From Psychroflexus planctonicus (lineage in GTDB: Bacteria > Bacteroidota > Bacteroidia > Flavobacteriales > Flavobacteriaceae): a stretch of 64,000 nucleotides of DNA. This document shows positions 9,009-53,455 of the stretch, piece by piece. The stretch lies in contig NZ_BMGM01000001.1 in the NCBI RefSeq assembly GCF_014640195.1, forward strand, positions 1-64,000, read 5' to 3'. Position 1 is the stretch's first letter; each line of letters opens with the position of its first letter. The position numbers were made by a program, and so were the translations under genes. The notes under the pieces are model-generated. The model was not told where the DNA came from. It made no database searches and worked only from the letters and a program-made list of their open reading frames with translations.

Positions 9009-9052
9009 AAGCTACCAAAATCTGGCGGAAAGGTAGGAAAAGAAACTAAAAA

Positions 9053-12720: not shown

Positions 12721-12798
12721 GAGTAATATTTTTGTTGGCAAATATAAGGGATTTAAGCTTATTTAGATTGATTTTTAATAAACAATTCCGTGATTAAA

Positions 12799-13137: not shown

Positions 13138-13253
13138 GTTTTTGGTTCAAAGAAAATGATAAATAGTTAGGTGCGACTTTTATTTATGGAAAGTTTTGGA
13201 TTCGAAATGTGAAGTTTAATTGAATATTCAATAACTTTATCTAAAATGAAAAA

Positions 13254-14036
13254 ATGAAGTTAGTACTTTATCAAATCGATGCGTTTACCCAAACTGTTTT
13301 TGGAGGGAATCCAGCAGCTGTGATTCCTTTAGATAAGTGGCTTGATGATGCTGTTTTGCGACAAATAGCAACCGAAAACAATTTATCTGAAACTGCTTTT
13401 TTTGTGATAAACAATGAAGTTGTAGAGTTGCGATGGTTCACTCCTGTTGCCGAAGTAAACTTATGTGGTCATGCCACTTTAGCAACGGCTTTTGTACTGT
13501 TTGAAGAACTTCATTTTGAAAGAGATCTCATTCAATTTTCAACAAAAAGTGGCATTTTGGAAGTGCATAAAAAAGAAAATGCTTTTCAAATGAATTTCCC
13601 TGTCGATACCATTGAAAAAATCGATGGAAGCGATTACAATAATTTGTTCGATATTCCACCGCAGGAAATTTGGAAAGGAAAAGAAGATGTATTGTTGCTA
13701 TTTCAAAGCGAAGCGGAAGTCAGCAAAATTAAACCCAATTTAGCTTTAATAGCCAATACTCCATTTCGTGGGGTAATTGCAACAGCTGTTGGTAATGAAG
13801 TAGATTTTGTATCTCGTTTTTTTACTCCACAGTTGGGGATTGATGAAGATCCTGTAACGGGTTCGTCACACACCACCTTGACTCCTTTTTGGGCGAAAAA
13901 ACTAGATCAAGTTCAATTTGAAGCAAAGCAAATTTCCAAACGCGTTGGACAATTGCATTGCCAACTCAGCGGAAACCGAGTGCACATTGCAGGAAATGCA
14001 ATACGTTATTTAAAAGGAGAAATTACCATTAATTAG
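13254..14036 (+). CDS. PhzF family isomerase/epimerase
   Basis: A 260-aa PhzF-type protein. The family signatures are QIDAFTQTVFGGNPAAV at the N-terminus, the catalytic Glu in NNLSETAF (about residue 46), the GHATLATAFVLF loop, and DEDPVTGSSHTTL near residues 200-212. The family isomerises small cyclic or enolic acids; only a few members make phenazine. With no phenazine genes nearby, the substrate cannot be named. It is followed after 34 bp by a DUF2007 gene in the same direction. Confidence 0.9.
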   Translation: MKLVLYQIDAFTQTVFGGNPAAVIPLDKWLDDAVLRQIATENNLSETAFFVINNEVVELRWFTPVAEVNLCGHATLATAFVLFEELHFERDLIQFSTKSGILEVHKKENAFQMNFPVDTIEKIDGSDYNNLFDIPPQEIWKGKEDVLLLFQSEAEVSKIKPNLALIANTPFRGVIATAVGNEVDFVSRFFTPQLGIDEDPVTGSSHTTLTPFWAKKLDQVQFEAKQISKRVGQLHCQLSGNRVHIAGNAIRYLKGEITIN

Positions 14037-14070
14037 ACAAAATAATATTAACCAAAAAAACAAAAATAAT

Positions 14071-14298
14071 ATGGACAATTCAAGCTATCAAAAAGTGTAT
14101 GCTGCTGGCGAAACAGAGACGCTAGCATTAAAAGATGCTTTTAATCAAGAAGGCATTCAATTTATAGAACGAAACAATATTCAATCTGGTTTACGTGGAG
14201 GATTTTACGGTGGAGCAAAAGGAGTTGAAATTCTTGTTCAAGAAAAAGATGTTGCCGCAGCTGAAAAAATAATTGCTGAAATATTCAATGCTGAATAA
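14071..14298 (+). CDS. DUF2007-containing protein (putative signal-transducing protein)
   Basis: A 75-aa protein with the DUF2007 pattern: an N-terminal KVYAAGETETLALKDAF helix region, EGIQFIERN, and VEILVQEKDVAAAEKII with a C-terminal amphipathic helix. The fold is PII-like/ferredoxin-like and the biochemical role is unknown. It probably shares a transcript with the phzF-like gene and ends just before a strong terminator. Confidence 0.8.
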   Translation: MDNSSYQKVYAAGETETLALKDAFNQEGIQFIERNNIQSGLRGGFYGGAKGVEILVQEKDVAAAEKIIAEIFNAE

Positions 14299-14317
14299 GT
14301 GAGCTTATTTAAAAAAA

Positions 14318-14346
14318 CAAAGCCCTGTTTAGAAAACAGGGCTTTG
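14318..14346. terminator. bidirectional terminator between DUF2007 gene and rpsA
   Basis: A 13-bp perfect stem (CAAAGCCCTGTTT and complement) with a 3-base loop is flanked by an A-run on the left and TTT on the right, between convergent genes. Confidence 0.85.
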
Positions 14347-14372
14347 AAATTTAATGGGATAAAATCTAGAAA

Positions 14373-16202
14373 TTACTTTCCTTCCATTTTATCTTTTAAA
14401 GCTTGAAGTTCTGCGTTAGCATCACCAATAGTGGTTTTTTGCTGATCTTCTTTTGCTTTCTTAGCTGCATTTCGAACAATTTTTTGTTCTTCTTCTTTAT
14501 GTAAAGAAGTGTGAGATGCAACAACTCTTTTAAATTCTTTATTGAATTCAATTACAATAAATTCTGCTTCTTCACCTTTACCTAATTTACTTCCGTCTTC
14601 TTTTTCTAGATGACGAGTTGGTATAAATGCAGTAACATCTTCATTGAAATCTATGGTTGCTCCTTTGTCTACCATTTCGGTAATAGCTGCGGTATGTTTT
14701 GTACCAACAGCAAACTCAGTAGCATATTCGTCCCAAGGATTTTTCTCAGTTTGTTTGTGACCAAGGCTTAATTTTCTACCTTCTACATCCAATTCTAACA
14801 CAACTACTTCTAGATTATCTTCTACTTTACAGAATTCTGATGGATGTTTTATTTTCTTAGTCCAAGATAAATCTGAGATGTAAATCAAACCATCAATTCC
14901 TTCTTCAAGTTCAACAAAAACACCAAAGTTAGTAAAGTTTCTTACTTCACCTTTGTGAGTTGAACCAACTGGATATTTAGTTGTAATGTCTGTCCATGGG
15001 TCTGGAGTTAATTGCTTAATACCAAGTGACATTTTACGCTCTTCTCTGTCTAAAGTTAAGATTTTAGCTTTCACTTTATCTCCTACTTTTACAAAGTCTT
15101 GTGCAGAACGTAAATGTGTACTCCATGACATTTCAGAAACGTGAATTAAACCTTCAACGCCTTCTTCTACTTCAATAAACGCACCGTAATCTGCAATAAC
15201 AGTTACAACACCTTCAACAACATCTCCTTCTTTAATATTTTCATCAAGTGCTTCCCAAGGATGCTTGCTCAATTGTTTTAAACCAAGTTGAATTCTTGTT
15301 TTGTCTTCATCAAAGTCTAAAATTACCACATTTAGAGTTTGATCTAATTCAACTACTTCATTTGGATGGTTAATTCTTGACCAAGAAAGATCTGTAATGT
15401 GAACTAACCCATCTACACCTCCTAAATCTACAAACACACCATAAGAAGTAATGTTTTTAACCACACCTTCTAAAACTTGACCTTTTTCTAACTGGCCAAT
15501 AATTTCTTTTTTCTGCTCTTCGATATCTGCTTCGATGATAGCTTTATGCGATACCACAACGTTTTTGAATTCATGGTTAATTTTAACCACTTTAAATTCC
15601 ATTGTTTTACCAACATACGCATCGTAATCGCGAATTGGTCTTACATCAATTTGAGAACCTGGTAAGAAAGCTTCAATACCAAATACGTCTACAATCATAC
15701 CACCTTTAGTTCTGCATTTTACAAAACCATTTACAATAGTACCATCTGCTTGCGCATCGTTAACGCGTTCCCAAGCTTTGATTACTCGAGCTTTACGGTG
15801 AGAAAGTACCAATTGACCTTCTTCGTCTTCACGAACATCAATAAGTACATCAACTTTATCGCCAACTTTTAAGTCAGGATTGTATCTAAACTCATTTAAA
15901 GAAATAACACCTTCACTTTTCGCGTTAATGTCAATAATAGCATCTTGATCGGTTAAATTAACAACTTCTCCAGATACAACTTCATTGTTTAGTGTTTCAA
16001 CAAAGTTTTCTTCTACTAATTTTTCGAATTCAGATAATTTTTCATCTTCAACTTCTTCGATACCTTCTTCATAACGGTGCCAGTTAAAGTTAGATAAAAA
16101 TTCTTTTGGGTTTTGTTGTTGCTCAGAAGGAGTAACAACTTGAGATTTATTCTCTTTGCTATCAACTTTTTGTTGATCAGCTTGTTTAGTTTCTTCAGCC
16201 AT
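14373..16202 (-). CDS. rpsA: 30S ribosomal protein S1
   Basis: A 609-aa S1 protein with six S1/OB domains at about residues 74-140, 153-218, 238-310, 325-395, 412-482 and 497-565. Repeated hallmarks are GVFVDLGGVDGLVHITDLSW, GAFIEVEEGVEGLIHVSEMSW and GVFVELEEGIDGLIYISDLSW. The first 50 residues are a low-complexity Gln/Lys-rich extension, common in Bacteroidota. S1 binds mRNA on the small subunit and matters especially here, because Shine-Dalgarno sequences are rare in this phylum. It is monocistronic with a long leader (promoter near 16320). Confidence 0.96.
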   Translation of the reverse strand: MAEETKQADQQKVDSKENKSQVVTPSEQQQNPKEFLSNFNWHRYEEGIEEVEDEKLSEFEKLVEENFVETLNNEVVSGEVVNLTDQDAIIDINAKSEGVISLNEFRYNPDLKVGDKVDVLIDVREDEEGQLVLSHRKARVIKAWERVNDAQADGTIVNGFVKCRTKGGMIVDVFGIEAFLPGSQIDVRPIRDYDAYVGKTMEFKVVKINHEFKNVVVSHKAIIEADIEEQKKEIIGQLEKGQVLEGVVKNITSYGVFVDLGGVDGLVHITDLSWSRINHPNEVVELDQTLNVVILDFDEDKTRIQLGLKQLSKHPWEALDENIKEGDVVEGVVTVIADYGAFIEVEEGVEGLIHVSEMSWSTHLRSAQDFVKVGDKVKAKILTLDREERKMSLGIKQLTPDPWTDITTKYPVGSTHKGEVRNFTNFGVFVELEEGIDGLIYISDLSWTKKIKHPSEFCKVEDNLEVVVLELDVEGRKLSLGHKQTEKNPWDEYATEFAVGTKHTAAITEMVDKGATIDFNEDVTAFIPTRHLEKEDGSKLGKGEEAEFIVIEFNKEFKRVVASHTSLHKEEEQKIVRNAAKKAKEDQQKTTIGDANAELQALKDKMEGK

Positions 16203-16624
16203 TGAAGATTAATTTTTGTATTCTACACATACTAGAAAAATTAAGCATTTATGCATAGAAGATGTTTAAATTCTATTTAATTGACCTTCAAGCTTTTCCT
16301 ATTTGCACTTTAAGGATTGCAAAAGTAATTCTTTTTACACAAATAGACAATTCTAAAAAACAATAATTTTAATCAATTCATTTTCTTATTATTAAACAAA
16401 TTTACAAAAGTTTAACCTAGCTTTGCTTTTTAAGAAGCCTACTGTTTAATTTTTGTAAATTAAATACTACGATTTTTAACACACCATGACACCTATACAA
16501 AACATTACCAAAACTTTAGGCTATAAAAATTTAGTGTTTAACAAATTTAATTTATCAATATTTTTTATTAATTTGCATTGCTATTTACTATTATAAATAA
16601 TTAAGTTATATCTTTTTATAAATT
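16203..16624. other. intergenic region between rpsA and the giant adhesin
   Basis: A divergent, very AT-rich spacer with no coding frame. It holds the rpsA promoter (16320-16350, leftward). On the plus strand a TTAATTTGC box near 16567-16575 may be the adhesin -7 region, about 50 bp before its ATG. The stretch 16430-16560 has no recognised element. Confidence 0.5.
16320..16350 (-). promoter_or_regulatory. promoter of rpsA
   Basis: On the minus strand TACTTTTG (16327 to 16320) is an exact -7 match, with TTG 20 bases upstream (16350 to 16348). Transcription would begin near 16313, giving a leader of about 110 bases that could host S1 autoregulation. Confidence 0.6.
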
Positions 16625-19600
16625 ATGAAAAATTATCATTCATATTTATTTTTCATTTTCCTTCTTTTTTACATGGGCTTTCAAGCAGGCTCTTTTGCTC
16701 AATCGCCTTTAGATAATTTTTTAGAAACCTTAAGCAGCAATGCTGTTATTGAAGGTAGAGTATATTTAGATACTAACGGAAACGGAACGCAAGATAATAA
16801 TGAAAATGGAATAGAGAATGTTACCATGCTTATTATCAATAATAATAACACTGGTCAATTTGCCACAACTAATGCAGATGGAGATTGGTCTATTACGGTT
16901 ATACCCGGGTTAACACAAGTTTTTGCAGCAACCAATAGCTTACCAAACGGAGTAATACAAACGGAAGGTACTAACCCTACCATTCTTAATGTACCTGATG
17001 TAAGCGATGAACCAGACGCAGAACCAATAGATATTGGCAGCTACGGATTCTTTTTAGTTGGAAATTTACAAGGAAATTTATATCTCGATGTAAATGGAAA
17101 TGGAACGCAAGATGATGGAGAGTCTGGAATTGAAGATGTTGAAATATTCCTCACTGATCAATTTGGAAACGTTCAAACCGTTCTCACTAATGAAGTTGGC
17201 GAATGGGAATTTCAAATCGGTGCAGGAGAAGTTATTTCAGAAATTAATCAAAATCACCCCAACTTTCCAACAGGTGCTTTCCAAACCGAAGGAACAGACC
17301 CAACAACAACAATTATTGAGCCCGGAGAAACCGTTTTCTCTGAAGACGATGGTTTTTTTGAAGCAGGAATCATCGAAGGAACTCTCTACCTAGATAGTAA
17401 TGGAAATGGAACACAAGATGCAGGTGAGCCAGGAATTGCAAATGTAGAAGTTGAAGTTGAAACCAGCTTAAACACAACCATTACATTAACTACAGATACA
17501 GATGGAAATTGGTCGGTTATGACTGCTGTGGGTGACACAAATGTAAGTATAGACGAAACTCAAGAAAATTTTCCAATTGGCTCAACACAAACCGAAGGCA
17601 CAAACCCAACAAACTACACTATTGAAATTGGCCAAGTTTATCAGCAAGTTGACGGGTTTTATGAATCTGGAAATATACAAGGACGTGTTTATTTAGATGA
17701 AAATGCTAACGGAACACAAGATAATGGCGAAACGGGTATTCCAAATATTCCTGTTGACATTTTAAAAAGTACTGGCGAAACAGAGACCGTAATTAGCGAT
17801 ACAGAAGGTGATTGGTCCTTAGAAGTTCCAATTGGCGAAACCGTTTCTACTATCGATACATCTTCTCCTGAATTTCCTAATCTTTTTATTCAAACAGAAG
17901 GAACAAATCCTACAACAAGCAATATATTAACTAACGAAAGCATAAGTGAGTTTGATGGTTTTGCTGAAGCAGCAGAAATAAGTGGAACAGTTTACGAAGA
18001 TGCCGATGGAAACGGAAACCAAGAAGCTGGTGAAACTGGTTTACAAGGCATTGAAGTTAGCATCGAAGATCAGTTTGGAAATGTTCAGGTTGTAACAACC
18101 AATCCAGATGGTATTTGGTCTGTATTAGTTTTAGCAGGTAATGTTACGGTTGAAATAGACGAAAATCAACCCAACTTTCCAGACAATGCCATACTTACTG
18201 AAGGTAGTAATCCTTTCTCTACACTAACTGTTGGCGGTGAAACCTACACAGCAAATTATGGTTATTTTATATTAGAAGATGACACTGCAGAAATAAATGG
18301 AAATCTTTACTTAGACATTAATGGCAACGGAAACCAAGATGCCAATGAACCTGGAATACCAGACGTTGAAATTGAAATAATAGATGCAACTAATGCCACA
18401 AATATAACTGAAACTGACGAAAACGGAAACTTTACTGCAATTGTAACGGGCGGACCTACAGGAGTTATTACATATACCATTAATGAAAACGATCCTGATT
18501 TTCCAATTGGAGCAATACAAACTGAAGGAACAAACCCGACTAGTGTTGTTGTTTCAGAAGGTATTTCTAATTTTGTTGGTGACAATGGATATTTTGTGCC
18601 TGACCAAAATACAGATGCATCTCTAGATGCAAGCGTTTATGAAGATGCTAATGGAAATGGAACACAAGATAATGGTGAAACTGGAATACCTAATACCGAT
18701 GTTATTATTACCGATAGCTTTGGAAATTCTCAAACAGTAGTAACCGATGCAAATGGGAATTTTACAGCCACAGTTACAGCTGGAAATGTAACTTATGAAA
18801 TAGACGAAAACGATACTGATTTCCCAACAGGAGCTATACAAACAGAAGGAACAAACCCAACTACTATATTTGCTCAACCAAACCAAAATAACTTTGGAGG
18901 CAATAATGGTTATTTTGTACCAGACCAAAATTCAACTGGCACCTTAGACGCTCATTTATATTTCGATGAAAACGGAGATGGAATACAACAAGCAACCGAA
19001 GCAGATATGCCTAATGTTGATGTAGAAATCACAGATGTCTTTGGAAATTCTCAAACTCTTCAAACCAATGCTAACGGAGATTTTTCAGCAAATGTGGTTG
19101 CAGGGAATGTAACTTACAACATCAATGAAAACGACCCTGATTTTCCAACGGGAGCAATTCAAACAGAAGGAACAAACCCAACTACGGTTTTTATAAACCC
19201 CGACCAAACCACATTTGGCGGAAACAATGGTTTCTTTTCTCCTGACCTAGAACTAGAAGCTACACTATCCGCGCATTTATACATTGATGAAAATGGAAAT
19301 GCTACACAACAAGCATCTGAACCAAACTTACCAAATGTAGAAGTTACTATAACAGATTCATTTGGAAATGAACAGACTGTAAACACAGATGCAAATGGTG
19401 ATTTTTCAGCAACGGTAGTCGCTGGAAGCGTGACATACCAAATCAACGAAGATGATCCTGATTTCCCTGTGGCTGCAATTCAAACCGAAGGTACCAATCC
19501 TACTACATTATTCATTGTGCCCAACACAGATGCATTTGGCGGAAATAATGGTTTTTTTGTCCCAGACTCTAACGAACAAGGCAACCTAACCGCTCACCTT

Positions 19601-22600
19601 TACTTTGATGAAAATGGTGACGGAACACAACAAGCCACTGAACCAAATATGCCCAATGTTGAAGTAGAAATAACAGATGTTTTTGGAAATTCTCAAATAC
19701 TCGAGACCGATGAAAACGGTGATTTTACAACAACAGTAATAGCTGGAAATGTAACTTATGAAATCGACGTAAATGATCTTGATTTTCCAATTGGAGCTAT
19801 ACAAACAGAAGGCACTAATCCTACACTTGTATTTATAACACCTGATAGCAATACTTTTGGTGGCAACAATGGCTTTTTCGACTTTTCTGATAGTGAAGAT
19901 GAAGGTGCAGTTACAGGCTTGGTCTATTTAGACGAAAATGGAAATGGAACACAAGACAGCAGTGAGCCTGGAATAGCAAACATTGAAGTTATCATACAAT
20001 TGGCAAATGGAAATACACTTAGTGTTTTTACAGGACTTAACGGTGTATTTTCTGCTCTAGTAGAAGAAGGATTTGTTGAAATTACAATTAATGAAGATGA
20101 TCCTAACTTCCCGGAACAAGCAGTTCAAACCGAAGGAATTAACCCAAACAATGTTGTGGTTTCAGCAGGAAACACAACAGATTCTGGCAGTTACGGTTAT
20201 TTTGTGCCCGACGAAAACATAACCACCAACATTTTTACACATTTGTACATAGATGAAGATGGAAATGGAACACAAGATGCAGGTGAGCCAGATTTAGCAA
20301 ATATTGATGTATTGTTTACGGATGCATTTGGAAATAACCTTACGGTTAGCACAGATGCAAATGGAAATGCTGAAGCTAATCTTTCAGCAGGAAATATAGA
20401 AATATTAGTAGATGAAGACGATCCTGATTTTCCAGTTGATGCTATACAAACTGAAGGAACAAACCCGACTAATATTATTGCTTTAGCAAGCCAAAATAAC
20501 TTTGGTGGTGAAAATGGTTTCTTTGTTCCAGATGACAACGGTGGCGAAGATCAAACCATTTTAAGTGCTCATCTCTATTTAGACCAAAACGGAAATGGAA
20601 CACAAGATCTAACAGAACCTGACTTAGAAAATGTTTCCGTAGAAGTTATTGATAATGCAGGTGCTATTCAAAATATACAAACCAACGCTAATGGAGATTT
20701 CAGTGTAATAGTTGCGGTTGGTAGTGTAACTTATACCATAGATGAAGATGATCCAAATTTACCAAATAACGCTGTTCAAACTGAAGGAACCAATCCTACT
20801 ACCCTAACAGCAATAGCCGATCAAAATAATTTTGGCGGAAACAATGGTTTCTTTGAACCTGACGAAAACATAACCACCAGTTTGGTTTTAAATATTTATT
20901 TAGACGAAAATGGAAATGGAACACAAGATGGCACAGAACCTAATTTAGTAGATGTAAGCGTAACTTTAACAGATGCTTTAGGAAATGAAACACAATTAAA
21001 TACCAATGCTAACGGAATCATCAATGCGATTATACCTCCTGGTCAAACAACCTACTTAATAGACGAAAACGATCCTAATATCCCAGAAAATGCAATTCAA
21101 ACTGAAGGAACTAACCCAACTACTATAATTGCACTTACCGAAATTGAAAATCAAGGTGGAAGCAACGGCTTTTTTGTTCCCAATGACAATGAAGACCAAA
21201 CCATTTTTAGTACGCATGTATATTTCGATGAAAACGGAAATGGAACACAAGACAACAATGAGCCCGATTTACCCAATGTAGATATTAGTATTTTAGAAGC
21301 CTCTGGAAATCAATTTACACTTACTACTAATGCTAACGGAAATATCTCTACTCAAGTTGAAGCGGGAGAAATTACTTACACCATTGACGAAGAAAGTCCA
21401 GGAATACCTGAAGATGCTTTTCAAACAGAAGGGACAAACCCAACTACCTTAACTGCAGAACTCAACCAAAACAACTTTGGAGGCAACAATGGCTATTTTG
21501 TACCGCAGCCGTCAGGTGGAACAGCGTTTATTATAACACATTTATATTTTGATATCAATGGAGATGGAAATCAAGATGCAGACGAACCTAATATGGTAGA
21601 TGTAGAAGTTTTTGTTACCGACCCAAACCAAACTATAAGTTTATCTTCAGACGGAAACGGTAACATTATTACCCAAGTTACGGCAGGAGAAATTACTGTG
21701 GAAATAAACGAATTAGACCCTGACTTCCCAACTGGTGCAATACAAACCGAAGGCACCAATCCAACAACGGTAAATGTAAATCAAGGTTCCACTTTTTATA
21801 TTGGAGACAACGGTTTCTTTGTTCCTGATGATGATGATATTACAACACTAGTCGGGCATTTATATCTAGATGATAACGCAAATGGAACACAGGACAATAA
21901 CGAAGCCGACTTACCAAATATCGATGTAATTATAACCGATAGTGACGGAAATGAACAAACCGTTTCTACTAATCCAAATGGTGATTTTGTAGCAAATGTT
22001 TCACCTGGAAATCTAATTTATCTAATAGACGAAGATGATCCAGATTTTCCTGCAAACGCCATTCAAACTGAAGGCACCAACCCTACTAATGTAAATGCTA
22101 TTGAAGGTGAAGAAAATTTTGGTGGCAACAATGGCTATTTTACTGAGGAGCCTTCAGAAGGAAATGCTATTATTATTACACATCTTTATTATGATGATGA
22201 TGGAAATGGAAATCAAGATAATATTGAAGCTGATATGACCGATGTGGAAGTTTTTGTTACGGATGCAAATGGTACGCAAAGTTTTATTTCAGATGACAAT
22301 GGAAACATTATTGCTGAAGTTTCTTCTGGTGAAATTACAATAGACATTAACCAATTAGACCCTAACTTTCCAACAGGTGCAGTTCAAACCGAAGGAACAA
22401 ATCCTACCACAGTTAATGTAAACGAAGGAACTACACTATACGTTGGAGACAACGGCTTCTTTTTTGTTGAAGATGTTAATACAAGCATATTCGGACACAT
22501 ATATTTAGATGAAAATTCAAACGGAACACAAGATAATAACGAGCCTGATTTAGCCAATATAAATGTTATTGTAAACGATAGCGCTGGAAACGAACAGACT

Positions 22601-23440
22601 ATTATTACTAATCCAAACGGAGATTTTATAGCCAATGTAGAGCCGGGTGAAGTCACTTATTTAATAGACGAAAGCAGTCCAGCTTTTCCAGCAGGAGCAG
22701 TTCAAACAGAAGGAACTAACCCAACTACGGTAACTGCCTTAGAAGCAGATAACACTTTTGGAGGTAATAATGGTTACTTTTTACCAACAAACGAAATAGA
22801 TGCAGCCGTATTTGGCCATCTTTATGAAGATCTAAACAATAACGGAACACAAGATGCAGACGATCCCAATTTAGTTGATGTAGAAGTTGAGATTATAGAT
22901 CAAACTGGAACCATCTATACTTTATTTAGCGACAATAATGGAGATTTTGATACGGAGTTAGCTTCTGGATTAGCAACGATTACCATTAACGAAAATGACC
23001 CAAATTTCCCACAAGGTGCAATACAAACAGAAGGAACAAACCCAACTTCAATTTTACTTCCTGTAGATGAAAATACAGACGCAGGTAACTTTGGATTTTA
23101 TTCTGATGATGATGATGGCGGTGGTGGCGAAGACGATGACGGGATAGATATCTTTAATGCGGTTTCTCCAAATGGTGATGGCAATAATGAGTTTCTTAGA
23201 ATAGAAGGACTTCAAGAATTTCCTGACAACAATGTAAAAATATATGACCGTTCTGGCGTTAAAGTTTTTGATACCAATAGATACGGATTTAATGGGAACG
23301 TTTTTAGAGGAATAAGCGAAGGAAGAATTAGCGTACAAAAAAACAAGCGTCTCCCTACAGGTACTTATTTTTATCTTTTAGAATACGAAGACGAAAATGG
23401 AGAACAAAAAAGAAAACAAGGTTACCTGTACTTAAACTAA
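16625..23440 (+). CDS. giant T9SS-secreted repeat adhesin (SdrD B-like repeats, type B sorting domain)
   Basis: A 2271-aa secreted surface protein. A signal peptide ends near SFAQ (about residue 26). Residues about 42-2160 are 20 tandem units of roughly 105 aa. Each starts with a YLDxNGNGTQDxxEPGI-like segment, an Asp/Asn-rich possible Ca2+ site as in SdrD B/Cna-B beta-sandwich domains, and carries the signature QTEGTNPT near its end. A short Asp/Gly linker precedes residues about 2173-2271, which match the gliding-motility-type (type B) T9SS sorting domain: FNAVSPNGDG, VKIYDRSG, LPTGTYFYLLEY. It is strongly acidic. It lies 6 bp upstream of a porP/sprF gene, its likely dedicated partner. The ligand is unknown. 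Confidence 0.9.
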   Translation: MKNYHSYLFFIFLLFYMGFQAGSFAQSPLDNFLETLSSNAVIEGRVYLDTNGNGTQDNNENGIENVTMLIINNNNTGQFATTNADGDWSITVIPGLTQVFAATNSLPNGVIQTEGTNPTILNVPDVSDEPDAEPIDIGSYGFFLVGNLQGNLYLDVNGNGTQDDGESGIEDVEIFLTDQFGNVQTVLTNEVGEWEFQIGAGEVISEINQNHPNFPTGAFQTEGTDPTTTIIEPGETVFSEDDGFFEAGIIEGTLYLDSNGNGTQDAGEPGIANVEVEVETSLNTTITLTTDTDGNWSVMTAVGDTNVSIDETQENFPIGSTQTEGTNPTNYTIEIGQVYQQVDGFYESGNIQGRVYLDENANGTQDNGETGIPNIPVDILKSTGETETVISDTEGDWSLEVPIGETVSTIDTSSPEFPNLFIQTEGTNPTTSNILTNESISEFDGFAEAAEISGTVYEDADGNGNQEAGETGLQGIEVSIEDQFGNVQVVTTNPDGIWSVLVLAGNVTVEIDENQPNFPDNAILTEGSNPFSTLTVGGETYTANYGYFILEDDTAEINGNLYLDINGNGNQDANEPGIPDVEIEIIDATNATNITETDENGNFTAIVTGGPTGVITYTINENDPDFPIGAIQTEGTNPTSVVVSEGISNFVGDNGYFVPDQNTDASLDASVYEDANGNGTQDNGETGIPNTDVIITDSFGNSQTVVTDANGNFTATVTAGNVTYEIDENDTDFPTGAIQTEGTNPTTIFAQPNQNNFGGNNGYFVPDQNSTGTLDAHLYFDENGDGIQQATEADMPNVDVEITDVFGNSQTLQTNANGDFSANVVAGNVTYNINENDPDFPTGAIQTEGTNPTTVFINPDQTTFGGNNGFFSPDLELEATLSAHLYIDENGNATQQASEPNLPNVEVTITDSFGNEQTVNTDANGDFSATVVAGSVTYQINEDDPDFPVAAIQTEGTNPTTLFIVPNTDAFGGNNGFFVPDSNEQGNLTAHLYFDENGDGTQQATEPNMPNVEVEITDVFGNSQILETDENGDFTTTVIAGNVTYEIDVNDLDFPIGAIQTEGTNPTLVFITPDSNTFGGNNGFFDFSDSEDEGAVTGLVYLDENGNGTQDSSEPGIANIEVIIQLANGNTLSVFTGLNGVFSALVEEGFVEITINEDDPNFPEQAVQTEGINPNNVVVSAGNTTDSGSYGYFVPDENITTNIFTHLYIDEDGNGTQDAGEPDLANIDVLFTDAFGNNLTVSTDANGNAEANLSAGNIEILVDEDDPDFPVDAIQTEGTNPTNIIALASQNNFGGENGFFVPDDNGGEDQTILSAHLYLDQNGNGTQDLTEPDLENVSVEVIDNAGAIQNIQTNANGDFSVIVAVGSVTYTIDEDDPNLPNNAVQTEGTNPTTLTAIADQNNFGGNNGFFEPDENITTSLVLNIYLDENGNGTQDGTEPNLVDVSVTLTDALGNETQLNTNANGIINAIIPPGQTTYLIDENDPNIPENAIQTEGTNPTTIIALTEIENQGGSNGFFVPNDNEDQTIFSTHVYFDENGNGTQDNNEPDLPNVDISILEASGNQFTLTTNANGNISTQVEAGEITYTIDEESPGIPEDAFQTEGTNPTTLTAELNQNNFGGNNGYFVPQPSGGTAFIITHLYFDINGDGNQDADEPNMVDVEVFVTDPNQTISLSSDGNGNIITQVTAGEITVEINELDPDFPTGAIQTEGTNPTTVNVNQGSTFYIGDNGFFVPDDDDITTLVGHLYLDDNANGTQDNNEADLPNIDVIITDSDGNEQTVSTNPNGDFVANVSPGNLIYLIDEDDPDFPANAIQTEGTNPTNVNAIEGEENFGGNNGYFTEEPSEGNAIIITHLYYDDDGNGNQDNIEADMTDVEVFVTDANGTQSFISDDNGNIIAEVSSGEITIDINQLDPNFPTGAVQTEGTNPTTVNVNEGTTLYVGDNGFFFVEDVNTSIFGHIYLDENSNGTQDNNEPDLANINVIVNDSAGNEQTIITNPNGDFIANVEPGEVTYLIDESSPAFPAGAVQTEGTNPTTVTALEADNTFGGNNGYFLPTNEIDAAVFGHLYEDLNNNGTQDADDPNLVDVEVEIIDQTGTIYTLFSDNNGDFDTELASGLATITINENDPNFPQGAIQTEGTNPTSILLPVDENTDAGNFGFYSDDDDGGGGEDDDGIDIFNAVSPNGDGNNEFLRIEGLQEFPDNNVKIYDRSGVKVFDTNRYGFNGNVFRGISEGRISVQKNKRLPTGTYFYLLEYEDENGEQKRKQGYLYLN

Positions 23441-46565: not shown

Positions 46566-47318
46566 ATGAGAACTAAAATTGTAGCTGGAAACTGGAAAAT
46601 GAATTGCGACCTTTCTGAAACCAAATTGCTTTTGGAAGGATTGGCAGGAAATGTAGAAGCAAAAGAAAATAAAAAAGTAATTGTTGCGCCACCTTATACT
46701 AATTTACATTATGCTTTTGAAAGCCTAAAGGATTCACCTATTGCAGTTGCTGCACAAAACATCAATGAAAATGAATCAGGAGCGCATACTGGCGAAATTT
46801 CGGCAAAAATGCTGAAAGGCGTTGGAGTAGAATACGTAATTATTGGGCATAGCGAAAGACGTTCCATTTATAATGAAACCGATGCCACTTTGGCGGCGAA
46901 AACAAATCAAGCCATAGCGGAAGGCTTCCAAGTTATTTTTTGTGTTGGCGAAGAATTAGAAAGTCGAAAAGCTGAAAAACACTTTGATGTTGTAAAATCG
47001 CAGTTGAAAAATGGACTATTTCAATTGAATGAAAACGAAATGGAAAATGTAGTTATCGCCTACGAACCGGTTTGGGCAATTGGAACGGGTGAAACAGCAA
47101 GCCCTGAGCAAGCGCAAGAAATGCATGCTTACATCCGCCAATTATTGGCTGATAAATATGAAACTTCTACGGCAGAAAACACAAGCATTTTATACGGTGG
47201 AAGTGTAAAACCGAATAATGCTGAAGAAATTTTCAGTAAACCCGATGTAGATGGTGGTTTAATTGGTGGAGCTTCTTTAAAAGCAGAAGATTTCCTTGCC
47301 ATTGTGAATAGCCATTAA
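46566..47318 (+). CDS. tpiA: triosephosphate isomerase
   Basis: A 250-aa TIM barrel interconverting dihydroxyacetone phosphate and glyceraldehyde 3-phosphate. GNWKMN carries the catalytic Lys, GHSERR the catalytic His, AYEPVWAIGTG the catalytic Glu loop 6, and LYGGSVKPNN and GLIGGASL bind phosphate. It is followed directly by prmA (stop TAA overlaps the next ATG context, no gap). Confidence 0.96.
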   Translation: MRTKIVAGNWKMNCDLSETKLLLEGLAGNVEAKENKKVIVAPPYTNLHYAFESLKDSPIAVAAQNINENESGAHTGEISAKMLKGVGVEYVIIGHSERRSIYNETDATLAAKTNQAIAEGFQVIFCVGEELESRKAEKHFDVVKSQLKNGLFQLNENEMENVVIAYEPVWAIGTGETASPEQAQEMHAYIRQLLADKYETSTAENTSILYGGSVKPNNAEEIFSKPDVDGGLIGGASLKAEDFLAIVNSH

Positions 47319-48146
47319 ATGAATTACATAGCTTATCATTTTCAAATTGAACCCAAAGAAGAATTCACCGATATGTTATTGGCTGAATTAAGCCTTTTCG
47401 ATTTTGAAACTTTTGAAGAAACAGAGCAAGGATTATCGGCTTATATTCAAGAAGAATTAGATGAAGAAGATTTGGTTTCCCAATTGAATCTTCTTCAAAA
47501 TAAGGAAGTGAGCATTTCTTATAAAAGGGAAAAAGTAGAAACCATCAATTGGAACAAAGAATGGGAAAAAAACTTCTCACCTATTGAAGTAGGTTCAACA
47601 TGTAGGGTTCGAGCTCCTTTTCATGAAAAAAAGGAAGTTGAATTTGATATTGTCATCGAGCCTAAAATGTCCTTCGGTACGGGTCATCATGCAACCACTT
47701 ACCAAATGATTCAGTTAATTTTAGAAGAAGACTGGCACAGCAAGAAGGTTTTAGACATGGGTTGTGGAACTGGAGTCCTTGGTATTTTAAGCAGCATGAA
47801 AGGTGCAAAAGAAGTTACTTATATTGATATTGACGATTGGTGTGTTGAAAATACAGAAGAAAATTTAATCAGAAATCAGGTAAAAGGCAAAGTAATTTTA
47901 GGTGGAGCTGAAAAAATTAATGCAAATTTTGATGTTATTATTGCGAACATAAATCGAAACATTTTACTGAATGATTTAGCTACATATTCAGCACATCTCA
48001 ATGAAAATGGACAAATTTACTTAAGTGGTTTTTACAAAGAAGATTTACCCATCATTAGGGATGAAGCTAGTAAGCAAGGTCTTACATTTGTTAAAAATGT
48101 AGAAAAAGACAATTGGATTGCTGCTAAATTTATGAAATTGTGCTGA
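47319..48146 (+). CDS. prmA: ribosomal protein L11 methyltransferase, with replaced C-terminal end
   Basis: A 275-aa SAM-dependent methyltransferase that trimethylates L11. The N-terminal substrate domain (about 1-115) and the class I motif VLDMGCGTGVLGIL (about 146-159), DIDDWCVENTEEN and IIANINRNILL (NPPY-like loop) are intact. The last four residues after KFxx, MKLC, differ from those encoded by the second copy of this 3' end at 53072-53145 (VKQRS). The 56 bp at 48076-48131 are exactly repeated there. The catalytic part is untouched, so the enzyme should work with an altered tail. Confidence 0.95.
   Translation: MNYIAYHFQIEPKEEFTDMLLAELSLFDFETFEETEQGLSAYIQEELDEEDLVSQLNLLQNKEVSISYKREKVETINWNKEWEKNFSPIEVGSTCRVRAPFHEKKEVEFDIVIEPKMSFGTGHHATTYQMIQLILEEDWHSKKVLDMGCGTGVLGILSSMKGAKEVTYIDIDDWCVENTEENLIRNQVKGKVILGGAEKINANFDVIIANINRNILLNDLATYSAHLNENGQIYLSGFYKEDLPIIRDEASKQGLTFVKNVEKDNWIAAKFMKLC
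48076..48131 (+). repeat. 56-bp direct repeat, left copy (inside prmA 3' end)
   Basis: Starts AAGGTCTTACATTTG and ends GCTGCTAAATTT; identical over all 56 bases to 53072-53127. It encodes the final conserved residues GLTFVKNVEKDNWIAAKF of PrmA. The two copies bound a 4940-bp segment (48132-53071). Confidence 0.95.
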
Positions 48147-48196
48147 ATTAGTACTTATACCTACAAACTAAGAACAAGGTTTTATTCAACAACAAA

Positions 48197-48225
48197 TTTG
48201 TAAAAAATTTTATTTACTAAGTTTG
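48197..48225 (+). promoter_or_regulatory. promoter of the BspA-like gene, inside the inserted segment
   Basis: TAAGTTTG (48218-48225) is an exact TAnnTTTG -7 element, with TTTG (48197-48200) 17 bases upstream. Transcription would begin near 48232, 25 bp before the ATG at 48257. Confidence 0.5.
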
Positions 48226-48256
48226 TGTTTTTAAGATATTTTAACTTTTCTATATT

Positions 48257-51200
48257 ATGAAAAACTTAGGCTTTAGAATCACTGTATTTTTTTGGGTTGG
48301 TATCCTTTTAATTTCAAATAAAACTTTTTCTCAAGACAACCCAAATTTTCAACTAGCTGCAAACGGAGTGACTTGTCTATGCCCCGATGCCACTTTTGGC
48401 GAAACAGGGACTTTAACAATTAATGGCGAAGAAAAAACCTTCACCAAAAGAAGCAGAAACCAATTATTGCAATTAATATATACTGATGTTTATAGTCCAG
48501 AAATAACATTGACTTGCACAAGTGGTATTTCTGACATGAGTAATTTATTGAGTCTTCCATATTTCAACCAACCGATTGAGAATTGGGATGTTTCTAATGT
48601 TACAAACATGCAAAGCATGTTTTATAATTCTACTTTTTTTAACCAAGATATTTCATCTTGGGATGTTTCTAATGTAGAGAATATGGAAAGTATGTTTGAA
48701 TCTGCAGTAGTTTTTAATCAACCACTTAATAGCTGGGATGTTTCTAATGTAATTAACATGAAATCTATGTTTTATGGTGCTTCAGTGTTCGATCAGGCCC
48801 TTGATAATTGGAATGTAAGTGACGTAACAAATATGGAAAGAATGTTTCAAAATACTGTTTTCAATCAGGATATATCTTCATGGGATGTAGGCAATGTGAA
48901 CAATATGGAAAATTTATTTTCCTATGCAGAACTGTTTAATCAACCGGTTAACGATTGGGATGTTAGTAATGTGACTAAAATGAACGGTTTATTTTCAGGT
49001 GCTAAATCGTTCAATCAAAATTTAAACAATTGGAACGTAAGTAACGTTACCGAGATGAGAAGTATGTTTTACGATGCAGAAAGTTTTGATAAATCATTAA
49101 ATGATTGGGATGTAAGTAATGTTACTGATATGACGTTCATGTTTAGTTTTGCAATTAATTTCAATCAACCTTTAAACAATTGGGATGTATCTAATGTGGA
49201 AAGCATGGCAGTGATGTTCGAAAGTGCATATGAATTTAATCAAATAGTTGAAAACTGGGATGTAAGTAGCGTAAATAGTATGGATAGAATGTTTGAAAAT
49301 GCTATATCTTTTAATCAAGATTTAAGTTTATGGAATTTTAATGCAGGTGTTATTCTAAATGATTTCTTAAGCTTAAGTGACTTTAGTGTTGTAAATTACG
49401 ATTCTTTATTAGCCAGTTTTGAAAATCAAAACCTTACTAATTTAGTTTTAGGTGCTGATAATATTGGATATTGTAATCAAGAAATTAGAGACAACCTAGT
49501 TAATAATCTTGGCTGGACTATTAGTGGAGATATTGAAAGCACATGTGATGAAACTTTAAATCCTTCTACGACAGCATTCATTACAAAATGGGCAGTAAAT
49601 AGTGAAGATTTAAACATAGATATTTACACAATAAACGCATTTGATTATGATTTTACAATTGATTGGGGCGATGGGAATATAGATTTGAATGTAAACTCAG
49701 ATATCAGCCATACCTATGCTAGTGAAGGAACATACACAATAAGTATAACAGGAGTCTTTCCTTATTTTAAAACATGCGAAAATACAGCAACTAACACTTC
49801 AAACATTTGTAGTAATAAGAATAAATTAAAAAGTGTAGAATCATGGGGCAATCAAGAATGGAAAAGTATGATTGGAAGCTTTTTCCGCGCTCAAGATTTA
49901 GCAATAAACACAACAGAAGTTCCAGACTTATCTAAAGTGAAAAGCATGAAAAATATGTTTCATGCAGCTACAAACTTTGACAGCAATATTAATAATTGGG
50001 ATATTTCTAACATAGAAGATTTAGAATCTTTATTTTATGGAACAAACTTCAACCAACCGCTAAATAATTGGAATGTTTCTAATGTTTTGAATATGAAATT
50101 TTTATTCAGCCAATCTAACTTCAATCAAAATATTAATGTTTGGGATGTTTCTGGTGTAAAAACTATGCAAGGGATGTTTTCTTTTAGTTCTTTTAATGCA
50201 CCTATTAATTCTTGGGATGTATCAAATGTAGAAAATATGTCTGGAATGTTTCTGGGCAATACAAATTTTAACCAACCCATTGGCAGCTGGGATACGAGTA
50301 GTGCCATAACGATGCGTAGTATGTTTGCGGGTGCAAATACCTTTAATCAAGATATTGGAAGCTGGGATATTTCTTTGGTTCAAGATTTGGGATTAATGTT
50401 TTATCAAGCTACAAATTTTAATCAAAACTTAAACAGCTGGTGTGTAGAATTAATAGAAAGCGAACCTGAAGCTTTTAGATATCAGTCTGCTTTAACAGAT
50501 TTTAATCTTCCTAATTGGGGGGAAGAATGTATTGATGATGGACCGAATCCAAACTTCTACCTTGCACCTAATGGAATAACTTGTATGTGTCCTGATGCAA
50601 ATTTTGGAGAAACTGGAATATTGGTAGTTAATGGAGAAGAAAAAACATTTACTAAACGAACTAAAAACGAGTTAAACTCTATCATAGAAACCAATGCTCA
50701 AAGCGAACTCATCTCACTTACATGTACTACCAGCATTACTAACATGGCATTTTTATTTGCAGGTAAAGAAGATTTTAATCAAGATATTAGTTCTTGGGAT
50801 ACAAGTAATGTTATATCAATGTACGGTTTATTTATTGGCGCTAGCAGTTTCAACCAAAATATTGAAGCTTGGAATGTTAGTAATGTAAATCAAATGGCGC
50901 AAATGTTTGCTTCTACGAGCTTTAATCAAAATATCAACTCTTGGGATGTAAGCAATGTTACAGATATGAGTGACATGTTTAATAACGCAGAAAATTTTAA
51001 TCAAACCTTAAATAATTGGGATGTAGGTAAGGTTTCTGATATGTCTGGTATGTTTTCTAAAGCAATCTCATTTAACCAACCTTTAGATAATTGGAATGTA
51101 GAATCTGTTATATATATGTGGGGAATGTTTCGTGATGCAGCATCATTTAATCAACCGTTAAACAATTGGAATGTAAATTATGTTGTTGAAATGGGCGAAT

Positions 51201-52957
51201 TATTTAGGGGACAAGATTATGAGACTATCTTTAACCAACCATTAGATAATTGGAATGTAAGTAGTGTTACAGCAATGCAGCGAATGTTTCAGAATAATAT
51301 TGCTTTTAACCAGGATATTTCAGGATGGTGCGTAGAATTGATAACCGAAGAACCAACTTACTTTACTAGCGAAAATTCAGTTTTGGACGCAAACTATTAT
51401 CCAACTTGGGGTGAGTGCATAATTACTCCTAATCCAAATCCAAATTTCACATTAGCTCCAAATGGAGTGACATGTTTTTGTGAAAATGCAGATATTGGTG
51501 AAACAGGCACATTGATTATTGATGGAGAAGAAATAACATTTACTAAACGTAACAGAAATCAGTTATATACGCTTATAGAAGGAAACGAGAATAATCCTTT
51601 AATTAATACTACATGTACAAGTGGTATTACAAATATGGATAATTTATTTGCCAATCAGTATATGGATGAAACTATCACACTTATACATTGGGATGTAAGC
51701 AATGTGACAAGCATGGAATCCATGTTTAAAGATTCATTTTATTTTGATGGAAATATTACTCATTGGAATGTAGGTAATGTTATTAATATGAAAGAGATGT
51801 TTAGAGGAACTTATTTTTTCAACCAATCTTTAAACGATTGGGATGTTAGTAATGTTACGAATATGAAAGGTATGTTTGAATTTACTGATTCGTTCGACCA
51901 GCCTTTAAATAATTGGGATGTGAGTAATGTCACCAATATGGAAAAAATGTTTAGCGCAAGTAGTTTTAACCAACCATTGAATAATTGGGATGTTTCTAAT
52001 GTTACGAGTATGAAAGGGATGTTTAGTTACAGTGAATTTTTCAACCAACCTATAAATAACTGGGATGTAAGTAATGTTACAAATACGGAAGAAATGTTCA
52101 AGGTTGCTTTTGTCTTTAACCAACATCTAAATGATTGGGATGTAAGTAACGTAACCAATATGTTTGAGATGTTTTATCTTTCTGATTTTAATAAACCTCT
52201 TAATAATTGGGATGTATCTAGTGTAACAAATATGTCAGGTATGTTTAATGTTGCAGATCAATTTAACCAATCTATTGAAAATTGGGATGTTAGCAATGTA
52301 ACGGACATGTCTAGAATGTTTAGTTCTGCTGATCAATTTAATCAACCAATTGAAAGTTGGGATGTTAGTAATGTAACGAACATGTTTTGGATGTTTTATA
52401 ATGCTGATGCTTTTAACCAACCTTTAAACAATTGGGATGTTTCTAATGTAGAATCTACGTATGGAATGTTTAGTGCAAACAATAATAATCAAACAATCTA
52501 CAACCAACCACTTCACAATTGGGATGTATCTAGTGTAATTAATATGGATTATATGTTTAACAACAACATAGCTTTTAATCAAGACATATCAGGCTGGTGT
52601 GTTGAAAATATTTCTACAGAGCCTATTTCATTTGCAATGGGATCTCCTTTACAATCAGATTTTTATCCACAATGGGGTGTAGACTGTGAGAGTTTAAGCC
52701 TAAACGGTGAAGACCTTACATATTTTGATATTTATCCAAATCCCACAGAACATCAATTGACGTTAGTTTGGCCAAATAAGTTGGTTTATGAAGATTTAAA
52801 TATTGGCATCTATTCTATTACAGGAAAAAAATTATATGATAAGAAGTTTAAGCAGCAGCCCAATAAAATAAACGTAGAATTCCTAAGCAGCGGTTTATAC
52901 TTGTTAAGAATACAGGATGAAAATATATCAGTCAATAAAAAATTTGTCAAAAAATAG
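48257..52957 (+). CDS. giant BspA-like leucine-rich repeat surface protein, T9SS type A sorting
   Basis: A 1566-aa secreted protein. The signal peptide ends near TFSQ (about residue 26). A head module with NPNFxLAxNGVTCxCPDA, GETGTL and EEKTFTKR occurs three times (about residues 28, 763 and 1058). Each head leads into BspA/DUF285 repeats of about 25 aa with the core NWDVSNVTNMxxMF...FNQPLN. I count about 35 repeats in blocks of 10, 6, 7 and 12. A PKD-like region (DWGDGN, HTYASEGTYTISITG; about 438-540) splits the first unit. Residues about 1485-1566 are a type A T9SS sorting domain (FDIYPNPTE, SSGLYLLRI). Likely an adhesin; target unknown. It lies between 56-bp repeats derived from prmA. Confidence 0.9.
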   Translation: MKNLGFRITVFFWVGILLISNKTFSQDNPNFQLAANGVTCLCPDATFGETGTLTINGEEKTFTKRSRNQLLQLIYTDVYSPEITLTCTSGISDMSNLLSLPYFNQPIENWDVSNVTNMQSMFYNSTFFNQDISSWDVSNVENMESMFESAVVFNQPLNSWDVSNVINMKSMFYGASVFDQALDNWNVSDVTNMERMFQNTVFNQDISSWDVGNVNNMENLFSYAELFNQPVNDWDVSNVTKMNGLFSGAKSFNQNLNNWNVSNVTEMRSMFYDAESFDKSLNDWDVSNVTDMTFMFSFAINFNQPLNNWDVSNVESMAVMFESAYEFNQIVENWDVSSVNSMDRMFENAISFNQDLSLWNFNAGVILNDFLSLSDFSVVNYDSLLASFENQNLTNLVLGADNIGYCNQEIRDNLVNNLGWTISGDIESTCDETLNPSTTAFITKWAVNSEDLNIDIYTINAFDYDFTIDWGDGNIDLNVNSDISHTYASEGTYTISITGVFPYFKTCENTATNTSNICSNKNKLKSVESWGNQEWKSMIGSFFRAQDLAINTTEVPDLSKVKSMKNMFHAATNFDSNINNWDISNIEDLESLFYGTNFNQPLNNWNVSNVLNMKFLFSQSNFNQNINVWDVSGVKTMQGMFSFSSFNAPINSWDVSNVENMSGMFLGNTNFNQPIGSWDTSSAITMRSMFAGANTFNQDIGSWDISLVQDLGLMFYQATNFNQNLNSWCVELIESEPEAFRYQSALTDFNLPNWGEECIDDGPNPNFYLAPNGITCMCPDANFGETGILVVNGEEKTFTKRTKNELNSIIETNAQSELISLTCTTSITNMAFLFAGKEDFNQDISSWDTSNVISMYGLFIGASSFNQNIEAWNVSNVNQMAQMFASTSFNQNINSWDVSNVTDMSDMFNNAENFNQTLNNWDVGKVSDMSGMFSKAISFNQPLDNWNVESVIYMWGMFRDAASFNQPLNNWNVNYVVEMGELFRGQDYETIFNQPLDNWNVSSVTAMQRMFQNNIAFNQDISGWCVELITEEPTYFTSENSVLDANYYPTWGECIITPNPNPNFTLAPNGVTCFCENADIGETGTLIIDGEEITFTKRNRNQLYTLIEGNENNPLINTTCTSGITNMDNLFANQYMDETITLIHWDVSNVTSMESMFKDSFYFDGNITHWNVGNVINMKEMFRGTYFFNQSLNDWDVSNVTNMKGMFEFTDSFDQPLNNWDVSNVTNMEKMFSASSFNQPLNNWDVSNVTSMKGMFSYSEFFNQPINNWDVSNVTNTEEMFKVAFVFNQHLNDWDVSNVTNMFEMFYLSDFNKPLNNWDVSSVTNMSGMFNVADQFNQSIENWDVSNVTDMSRMFSSADQFNQPIESWDVSNVTNMFWMFYNADAFNQPLNNWDVSNVESTYGMFSANNNNQTIYNQPLHNWDVSSVINMDYMFNNNIAFNQDISGWCVENISTEPISFAMGSPLQSDFYPQWGVDCESLSLNGEDLTYFDIYPNPTEHQLTLVWPNKLVYEDLNIGIYSITGKKLYDKKFKQQPNKINVEFLSSGLYLLRIQDENISVNKKFVKK

Positions 52958-53071
52958 TGTCTAATATTTTATGAAAAGTAGAGTAACATCTATTAGTAGA
53001 TATACTAAAATAATAGTAACAAATTTTGCTTAGTATATTAATAGAACAAAAATGAATATACTAAAAATATA

Positions 53072-53127
53072 AAGGTCTTACATTTGTTAAAAATGTAGAA
53101 AAAGACAATTGGATTGCTGCTAAATTT
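53072..53127 (+). repeat. 56-bp direct repeat, right copy
   Basis: Identical to 48076-48131 over all 56 bases. Flanking bases differ on both sides (C versus A to the left; ATGAAATTG versus GTTAAACAA to the right). Confidence 0.95.
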
Positions 53128-53145
53128 GTTAAACAACGAAGTTAG
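53072..53145 (+). pseudogene. prmA: orphan 3' fragment of prmA
   Basis: In the prmA frame this segment reads GLTFVKNVEKDNWIAAKF then VKQRS and a TAG stop (53143-53145). An in-frame stop lies just upstream at 53062, so it is not expressed as a protein. It is probably the original end of prmA, left behind 34 bp upstream of clpS. Confidence 0.8.
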
Positions 53146-53160
53146 AAAAGATGTATTTTA

Positions 53161-53168
53161 TATTTTTG
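53161..53168 (+). promoter_or_regulatory. possible -7 element of clpS
   Basis: TATTTTTG is an exact TAnnTTTG match 11 bp before the clpS ATG. It might let clpS be transcribed independently now that it is separated from prmA by the insertion. Confidence 0.35.
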
Positions 53169-53179
53169 AAAAAAAAAGC

Positions 53180-53455
53180 ATGGGATATAAAGAACAAGTT
53201 TTAGAACAAGTTAAAGTTGCTGAAAATGTTCAAAAAGAACATGAGCTTATTGTACATAACGACGAAGTAAATACCTTTGATCACGTAATTGAGACCTTGA
53301 TAGAATTTTGTGATCACACTCCTACTCAAGCAGAACAATGCACGATTTTAATTCACTACAAAGGAAAATGTGGTGTAAAAACAGGTGATTTTGAAGACCT
53401 TAAAAAAAGATGCTCTAAAATTTTAGAAGTTGGTATATCAGCCGAAGTAATCTAA
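53180..53455 (+). CDS. clpS: ATP-dependent Clp protease adaptor ClpS
   Basis: A 91-aa N-degron adaptor that delivers substrates with destabilising N-terminal residues to ClpAP/ClpCP. The core LIVHNDEVNTFDHVIETLIEFCDHTPTQAEQC carries the NDxxNT motif and the His region; IHYKGKCGVKTGDFEDL follows. The start MGYKEQVLEQ is chosen; the longer upstream frame runs through the prmA repeat in another reading frame and is fortuitous. Normally it would follow prmA directly. Confidence 0.9.
   Translation: MGYKEQVLEQVKVAENVQKEHELIVHNDEVNTFDHVIETLIEFCDHTPTQAEQCTILIHYKGKCGVKTGDFEDLKKRCSKILEVGISAEVI

Follow-up and report, generated by a model that had tools for sequence, protein, structure and literature searches.

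The DNA analysed here, referred to below as the window, is a stretch of 64,000 nucleotides from Psychroflexus planctonicus which forms the start of contig C1 of its genome, and it carries, between prmA and clpS, a single gene for a giant adhesin that is bounded on both sides by the same 56 bases of the 3' end of prmA. The two copies of this block (48076-48131 and 53072-53127) are identical at 56/56 positions and start 4996 bp apart, as the earlier note on this DNA had described, and a search of the genome (3,113,709 bases) recovers the 56-mer at these two places only. Given that only ~9e-23 pairs of this kind are expected in the window, the exact repeat did not arise by chance; over 62 bp, the copies are 97% identical (60/62). 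The features of the region are as follows.

46566..47318, forward strand: left neighbour, an open reading frame (ORF) from the ORF list, which, from its sequence, we take to be tpiA
47319..48146, forward strand: prmA, full length, 275 amino acids, with the substituted C-terminus MKLC (Pfam PF06325, E 3.6e-48, residues 34-271; tails of relatives)
48076..48131, forward strand: left 56-bp direct repeat, in prmA, holding TACATTT-GTTAA-AAATGTA (sequence comparison)
48132..48146, forward strand: new prmA end ATGAAATTGTGCTGA, insert-derived, unlike the native end beside clpS and the end in Psychroflexus salis
48147..48256, forward strand: leader of the adhesin gene, insert-borne, with a Bacteroidota-type promoter-like motif at 48197-48225 (read from the sequence)
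48257..52957, forward strand: gene of a DUF285/BspA-type (PARCEL) repeat protein, 1566 amino acids, with a type IX secretion sorting domain (Pfam PF03382 in 13 stretches, PF18962)
52958..53071, forward strand: 3' region, insert-borne, with the inverted repeat TTAGTATATT/AATATACTAA (sequence; fold of 52958-53127)
53072..53127, forward strand: right 56-bp direct repeat (sequence comparison)
53128..53145, forward strand: native prmA end (VKQRS and stop), now severed from its gene (position matches the P. salis prmA end and spacer)
53180..53455, forward strand: clpS, right neighbour (Pfam PF02617), with an upstream motif TATATTTTTG at 53159-53168 in common with P. salis (spacer alignment)

The insertion scar at the 3' end of prmA

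The left copy lies inside the prmA frame (47319-48146), which runs on into the insert and meets a new stop after four codons, so that its end reads ...AAKF-MKLC*. Read in the same frame, the right copy continues as ...AAKF-VKQRS*, with the stop at 53143-53145, 34 bp before the ATG of clpS at 53180, and both ends are those given in the earlier note. In P. salis, the closest relative found (PrmA 75% identical; locus L056, and L027 of the same-genus genome G009), the site is empty, and prmA ends ...AAATTTGTTAAAGCAATTATCTAG, with the spacer between it and clpS aligning to the right copy of the window through to clpS. Given this alignment, the native end of prmA is that of the right copy (VKQRS), and the MKLC end of the left copy is therefore derived from the insert, being unlike every prmA end listed among the relatives. 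Short gaps of 19-46 bp between prmA and clpS are found in all 19 Psychroflexus loci read besides that of P. planctonicus (P. salis included), a count that sets aside seven further genomes of the genus, not read at prmA-clpS. It is very likely, then, that a segment was inserted into the 3' end of prmA with the substitution of its tail and the displacement of the native end to the side of clpS, which is what had been proposed, and the empty sites that were to be sought in relatives are present in P. salis and the other Psychroflexus loci. A housekeeping gene thus tolerates an insertion in its last codons.

One other reading denies any insertion, and considers the repeat to be either an assembly artefact or part of an old prmA-bspA-clpS order in which the tail was duplicated in tandem or by chance. 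The earlier note had itself allowed that all of the relatives might carry this order; the 19 other Psychroflexus loci read have short prmA-clpS gaps instead. The site also lies 48 kb inside a contig of 458,111 bases, relatives show the empty site, and the right copy runs on into the native spacer, which together make this reading very improbable.

The two copies differ at 0/56 positions, and the prmA tail of P. salis differs from them at 9/56. Since the right copy has ceased to be the end of prmA, it should drift, and the lack of differences points to a young insertion, or to copies kept alike by conversion. The block would, most simply, be derived from the prmA of the same species, given that the tail of an element acquired from another species should be diverged, and this one matches at 56/56.

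The inserted adhesin gene

Only one long gene, of 1566 amino acids (48257-52957), lies between the repeats, and the remaining ORFs listed there (both strands, minimum of 60 amino acids) have 60-73 amino acids and all overlap it. Its product holds 13 DUF285 stretches in Pfam (1029.9 bits), in the tandem arrangement of the PARCEL/BspA-type surface proteins, and ends in a Por_Secre_tail domain (PF18962, residues 1492-1564, E 1.3e-13), the sorting domain of type IX secretion, which is an export signal suited to the host. The family is patchy in its distribution, as PARCEL proteins are, being present in 17/45 genomes (P. planctonicus included), and tblastn finds adhesin-like proteins in 72 plasmid records and 111 phage records as well, all at less than 60% identity. 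The ORFs and the Pfam matches uphold the earlier description of a BspA-like protein of the type IX secretion system (T9SS) as the sole gene between the repeats; the promoter also claimed for it corresponds to a promoter-like motif, TTTG-N17-TAAGTTTG (48197-48225), which follows what we take to be the Bacteroidota promoter consensus, a type that the sigma-70 scan does not cover.

The insertion does not resemble that of a transposon, since no transposase-sized ORF lies between the repeats besides the adhesin gene; the 56-bp block is also longer than the usual target-site duplications of transposons. A paralogue on contig C15 of the same genome was considered as a recent source of the copy and rejected, given that it has 64% identity over the N-terminal 100 residues. 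Among the matches listed, its similarity at the DNA level (64-88% across pieces) sits in the coding repeats, and none reaches the leader or the 3' region of the adhesin gene. No donor of the insert ends was found either in 27 genomes of the genus, searched with the 3' region, or in the P. planctonicus genome, searched with the leader. The one other match to the 3' region (26 bp, 92%) falls within a coding gene of P. salis, and the leader side (48132-48300) has a single further match, likewise of 26 bp at 92%, both of which are taken as chance.

The prmA-clpS gap and the repeats around other DUF285 genes

A survey of 144 genomes of the Flavobacteriaceae, that of P. planctonicus included, recovered PrmA in 135/144, ClpS in 138 and both in 133, with the two genes adjacent in 130. 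The gap between them is at most 200 bp in 120 of these 130 genomes, 1.1-1.2 kb in eight, 433 bp in one, and 5037 bp in P. planctonicus, the only one of the 130 with a gap near 5 kb. Among 109 other loci (some genomes being represented twice), clpS follows prmA in 84, and the gaps are of 3-79 bp in 83/84, the remaining one being the 4787-bp gap of Aquimarina agarivorans (L089); no clpS was seen after prmA in the other 25/109, which are mostly from other groups or on cut contigs.

Two other types of gene occupy this gap. In 8/130 family genomes, of eight genera (L209-L215, L217), it holds an ORF for an M57-like 'HEIGH' metallopeptidase, which, by our own reading of its N-terminus, is probably secreted, and the five of these eight that were run against Pfam all match PF12388. 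No exact repeat of at least 12 bp surrounds this gene in the eight genomes, except for one of 12 bp in one genome. In Aquimarina agarivorans HQM9, the gap holds a Vps10/ricin-lectin T9SS gene of 1092 amino acids (L089:9614-12892), for which no duplicated prmA tail could be detected (alignment score of 33, versus a mean of 20.7 and a maximum of 40 in shuffles). Given that the M57 and the Vps10/lectin T9SS genes occupy it too, the gap can accommodate single genes of such a sort, and the tail duplication is seen only in the window.

A second short match to the PrmA tail was found in the P. planctonicus genome only, among the matches listed (60 and 144 genomes, the second match of genome G134 falling outside the list), in a search whose cut-off would miss a diverged tail of 22 residues, and cargo between copies of the 56-bp repeat is absent from every other genome read. 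For this reason, a dedicated site for the swapping of adhesins at prmA is rejected as a general claim. The suggestion that surface adhesins are swapped by a system at this fixed core-gene site is, as such, unsupported, as the relatives offered no other cargo between the same 56 bp and the two other types of gene occupy the gap without the repeat.

Repeats around other DUF285 genes were sought by aligning the flanks of these ORFs in the fetched stretches, the first set of which held 57 ORFs, including seven that lay too close to an edge. In another Psychroflexus genome, of 170 contigs, a DUF285/T9SS gene of 688 amino acids lies between two copies, of 394 and 397 bp, which hold the last ~100 codons of the neighbouring gene and its 3' untranslated region (L272); as read, the left side of that gene is broken, and a search of the other 26 genomes of the genus did not recover its tail. 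Of the 88 DUF285 ORFs with usable flanks (25 + 63), the duplicated 3' end of an unrelated gene was recognised only here and in the window.

Repeats of other kinds were also found. Two Psychroflexus species carry the same DUF285 gene (L255:8045-9940, L269:8113-10300), ~78% alike in its leader and 3' region, at a distance of ~0.2 kb from different tRNA genes, with a repeat of 42-44 bp that is present in the leader and recurs at the right boundary, the point at which the similarity stops abruptly. DUF285 genes of other genera lie between repeats of 74 bp (L318) and 90 bp (L306), and the repeat of L274 is a leader of 112 bp that precedes two tandem T9SS genes. The repeats in L291, L292, L298 and L312 come from tandem paralogues, and those in L276 and L331 are terminator-like hairpins, some of these being judged from the table alone. 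In a further locus (L268, G025:C1:893000-912900), a relative of the 43-bp leader repeat lies at 3660-3700, in a DUF285 cluster that is broken by ORFs which resemble transposases by eye.

Flanking repeats accompany 4/25 DUF285 genes versus 12/446 other ORFs in the Psychroflexus stretches (Fisher p 0.007, or 0.036 without the window), and 10/63 versus 19/378 in the stretches of other genera and families (p 0.004), with the ORFs near the stretch ends excluded. Given that the test was post hoc and uncorrected, and that the counts are inflated by tandem paralogues (above all in genome G047) and by terminator hairpins, this enrichment is treated as a lead only.

These loci bear on a further reading of the window, in which the adhesin gene would be a reversible cassette, one repeat and the gene forming a circle that is excised and reintegrated by RecA and that shuttles among strains sharing the flanking gene. 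Several DUF285 genes do lie between repeats (56 to 397 bp) that are possibly of the length needed by RecA, and it would also fit that, in L255 and L269, one DUF285 gene and its repeats of 42-44 bp lie beside different tRNA genes in the two species. This reading leaves the first linkage of the prmA tail to the adhesin gene unexplained, however, and the pair of species shows no duplicated target, the left repeat being in the leader of the gene itself; we regard it as improbable.

Within the P. planctonicus genome, no scar of the same type was recognised at other T9SS genes among the best six repeats of each of 44 stretches, which amount to 678,792 bases with the window and with overlaps included, or ~1/5 of the genome, and lie around the DUF285 genes and many, not all, of the 77 Por_Secre_tail matches. 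The repeats inspected closely are those of tandem paralogues (L180, L187), and in L169, L176, L195 and L200 both copies fall, by position, in pairs of genes. One copy in L179 is in the 3' end of a T9SS gene and the other beside a weak tail match, and the repeat of L182 is intergenic. The three long tandem T9SS genes of L200 (C16:1-20000) have exact stretches of 94 to 133 bp in common (the six longest), likely through recent duplication or conversion.

Possible routes of entry and known systems

The sequence of events that may be proposed begins with the horizontal acquisition of a single-gene unit, formed by the promoter-like leader, the gene of the giant PARCEL/BspA-type T9SS adhesin, and the 3' region, which would have come from outside and entered prmA at its last codons in this lineage of Psychroflexus. 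Such an event would have left the 56 local bases of prmA on both sides, with the left copy still joined to prmA and reading into the insert, and the right copy keeping the native end and the native clpS spacer. These bases may have been copied from a local or conspecific prmA during non-dedicated recombination, either as a DNA fragment or circle with the prmA tail in common was integrated or by template switching during repair, with no integrase having evolved to use prmA, and the repeat would permit the excision of a circle by homologous recombination.

We favour this route, the duplication of local target DNA by non-dedicated recombination, with a confidence that barely exceeds an even chance. 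It needs no evolved site that restores the tail, as MKLC is unlike the listed prmA ends and a stop is met within 5 codons at 27% of random offsets, which is a soft argument, since PrmA ends vary among relatives. The repeats at DUF285 genes vary in both length and sequence, and for this reason non-dedicated recombination also fits better than one integrase.

Several points weigh against it. The architecture of the site equals that left by site-specific islands at the 3' ends of genes, and inverted repeats lie inside the 56-bp block and just inside the right end of the insert, features also reported, in the available text, for the att sites of ECC elements, which are direct repeats of 50 bp with inverted repeats (PMC6222049). 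The insert has no donor sequence among those searched. As for L272, its genome is in 170 contigs, its target gene is broken as read, and this gene is absent from the 26 other genomes of the genus that were searched. The repeats of L255, L269, L318 and L306 duplicate no 3' end of a neighbour, and the stretches screened in the P. planctonicus genome hold no further scar of this kind.

The same architecture is central to the site-specific alternative, a passive cassette with the prmA tail as its attP core, moved by a tyrosine or serine recombinase that is encoded elsewhere or has since been lost, like the SCC and ECC elements at rlmH and the islands at tRNA 3' ends. The exact 56-bp repeat at the 3' end of a gene with a substituted tail is what such islands leave, and the block contains a 7-bp inverted repeat with a 5-nt spacer (TACATTT-GTTAA-AAATGTA), with one of 10 bp just inside the right end of the insert, TTAGTATATT (53030-53039) and AATATACTAA (53055-53064). 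The single-strand DNA fold of 52958-53127 has a z of -3.27, with 0/200 shuffles folding as well, and the genome has ten matches to tyrosine recombinases, nine of them over the family cut-off.

On the other hand, no recombinase is encoded between the repeats, where no ORF on either strand except the adhesin exceeds 73 amino acids and the adhesin matches only DUF285 and Por_Secre_tail, nor is there a recombinase gene in any prmA-clpS gap read (loci with both genes adjacent). Compared with seven integrase stretches of the same genome, which cover 9/10 of its tyrosine-integrase matches (serine recombinases were not searched for), the repeat and the insert ends have no similarity above that of 15 shuffles each, bar a borderline case in L233 (16 versus a maximum of 15). 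The 56-mer has no exact match in IMG/VR. The same core is also not seen in reuse, the 56-mer occurring twice in the genome and the other prmA-clpS inserts having no duplicated tail, and the repeats at other DUF285 genes are unlike it in length and sequence. An element from another species would, as seen above, be expected to carry a diverged tail, and a site that had evolved for this use should restore the tail of prmA, whereas the new end is unlike the prmA ends read. Site-specific integration is, on balance, a possible but unlikely route: of the att-type passive cassette that had been suggested, the insertion with a 3'-end repeat and the absence of a recombinase inside hold, and the att role is unsupported, no second user of the repeat having been found.

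Integron cassettes were also considered, and the insert ends and the repeat align no better than shuffles with the attC-like array of L237, the only array compared. That locus of the P. planctonicus genome (C2:280000-299900, ~9039-19870) encodes a tyrosine integrase of 411 amino acids, with Phage_integrase and SAM-like domains, behind which lie five copies of CGCCACTTTCGTTATGCGCGA contained in longer repeats, and it may be an integron-like locus, its repeats resembling attC sites.

SCC and ECC elements are inserted at the 3' end of rlmH, which they provide with a substituted end. In the available text on ECC, the likeness to the window extends to the integration in a core gene, the direct repeats of ~50 bp, and the inverted repeats at the ends, but ECC encodes the serine recombinases ccrAB and has in its att sites a motif in common with SCCmec, whereas the unit of the window is one gene, with no recombinase and no second user of the repeat found (PMC6222049). 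The ssrA-specific genomic islands of Dehalococcoides are similar in that accessory genes are inserted at one conserved gene; the portion of that paper at hand gives 31 islands at one site, 16 with an integration module, in contrast to the single insert with this repeat, and no such module, in the window (PMC3146451).

The DUF285 repeats are the PARCELs of Roske et al. 2010, who, in the available part of their paper, described patchy ORFs, argued for horizontal spread, intragenomic movement and plasmid carriage, and named Psychroflexus torquis among the carriers (PMC2996958). In two Prochlorococcus isolates, the location of one PARCEL ORF differs, these places being 'devoid of apparent mobility genes' (PMC2996958). 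The gene of the window is likewise a DUF285 tandem-repeat surface protein, and it differs in having a base-resolved scar for a single gene, the available part of that paper giving no scar, target duplication or empty site (PMC2996958). Among the matches listed, the literature holds no report of insertion into prmA, the gene of the ribosomal protein L11 methyltransferase; as far as the available text goes, a gene of this type is mentioned inside a genomic island, not as an insertion target. No base-resolved insertion scar of a DUF285 gene with an empty site was reported among the matches either, and a scar of this kind, with the empty site in a relative, seems to be new.

The meaning of the scar lies in the wide occurrence of the DUF285/PARCEL surface proteins in many unrelated bacteria, phages and plasmids, and in their movement without mobility genes, which the available part of the same paper describes but leaves unexplained (PMC2996958). 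Being base-resolved and probably recent, with the native and the substituted ends told apart, the scar is a trace of how such adhesin genes move and makes their route of entry testable in marine bacteria, and it is no proof of a dedicated swapping machine. A broader reading, which we consider speculative and doubtful, is that the DUF285/PARCEL adhesin genes of the Flavobacteriaceae are recombinase-less single-gene mobile units that leave long and variable target duplications, of tens to hundreds of bases and at times of a neighbour's 3' end, and that can be excised again by homologous recombination across the duplication. If true, it would provide one mechanism for the mobility of the PARCELs.

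Finally, the window holds tandem repeats of ~321 bp at 16763-23109, which apparently form one very long repetitive gene.

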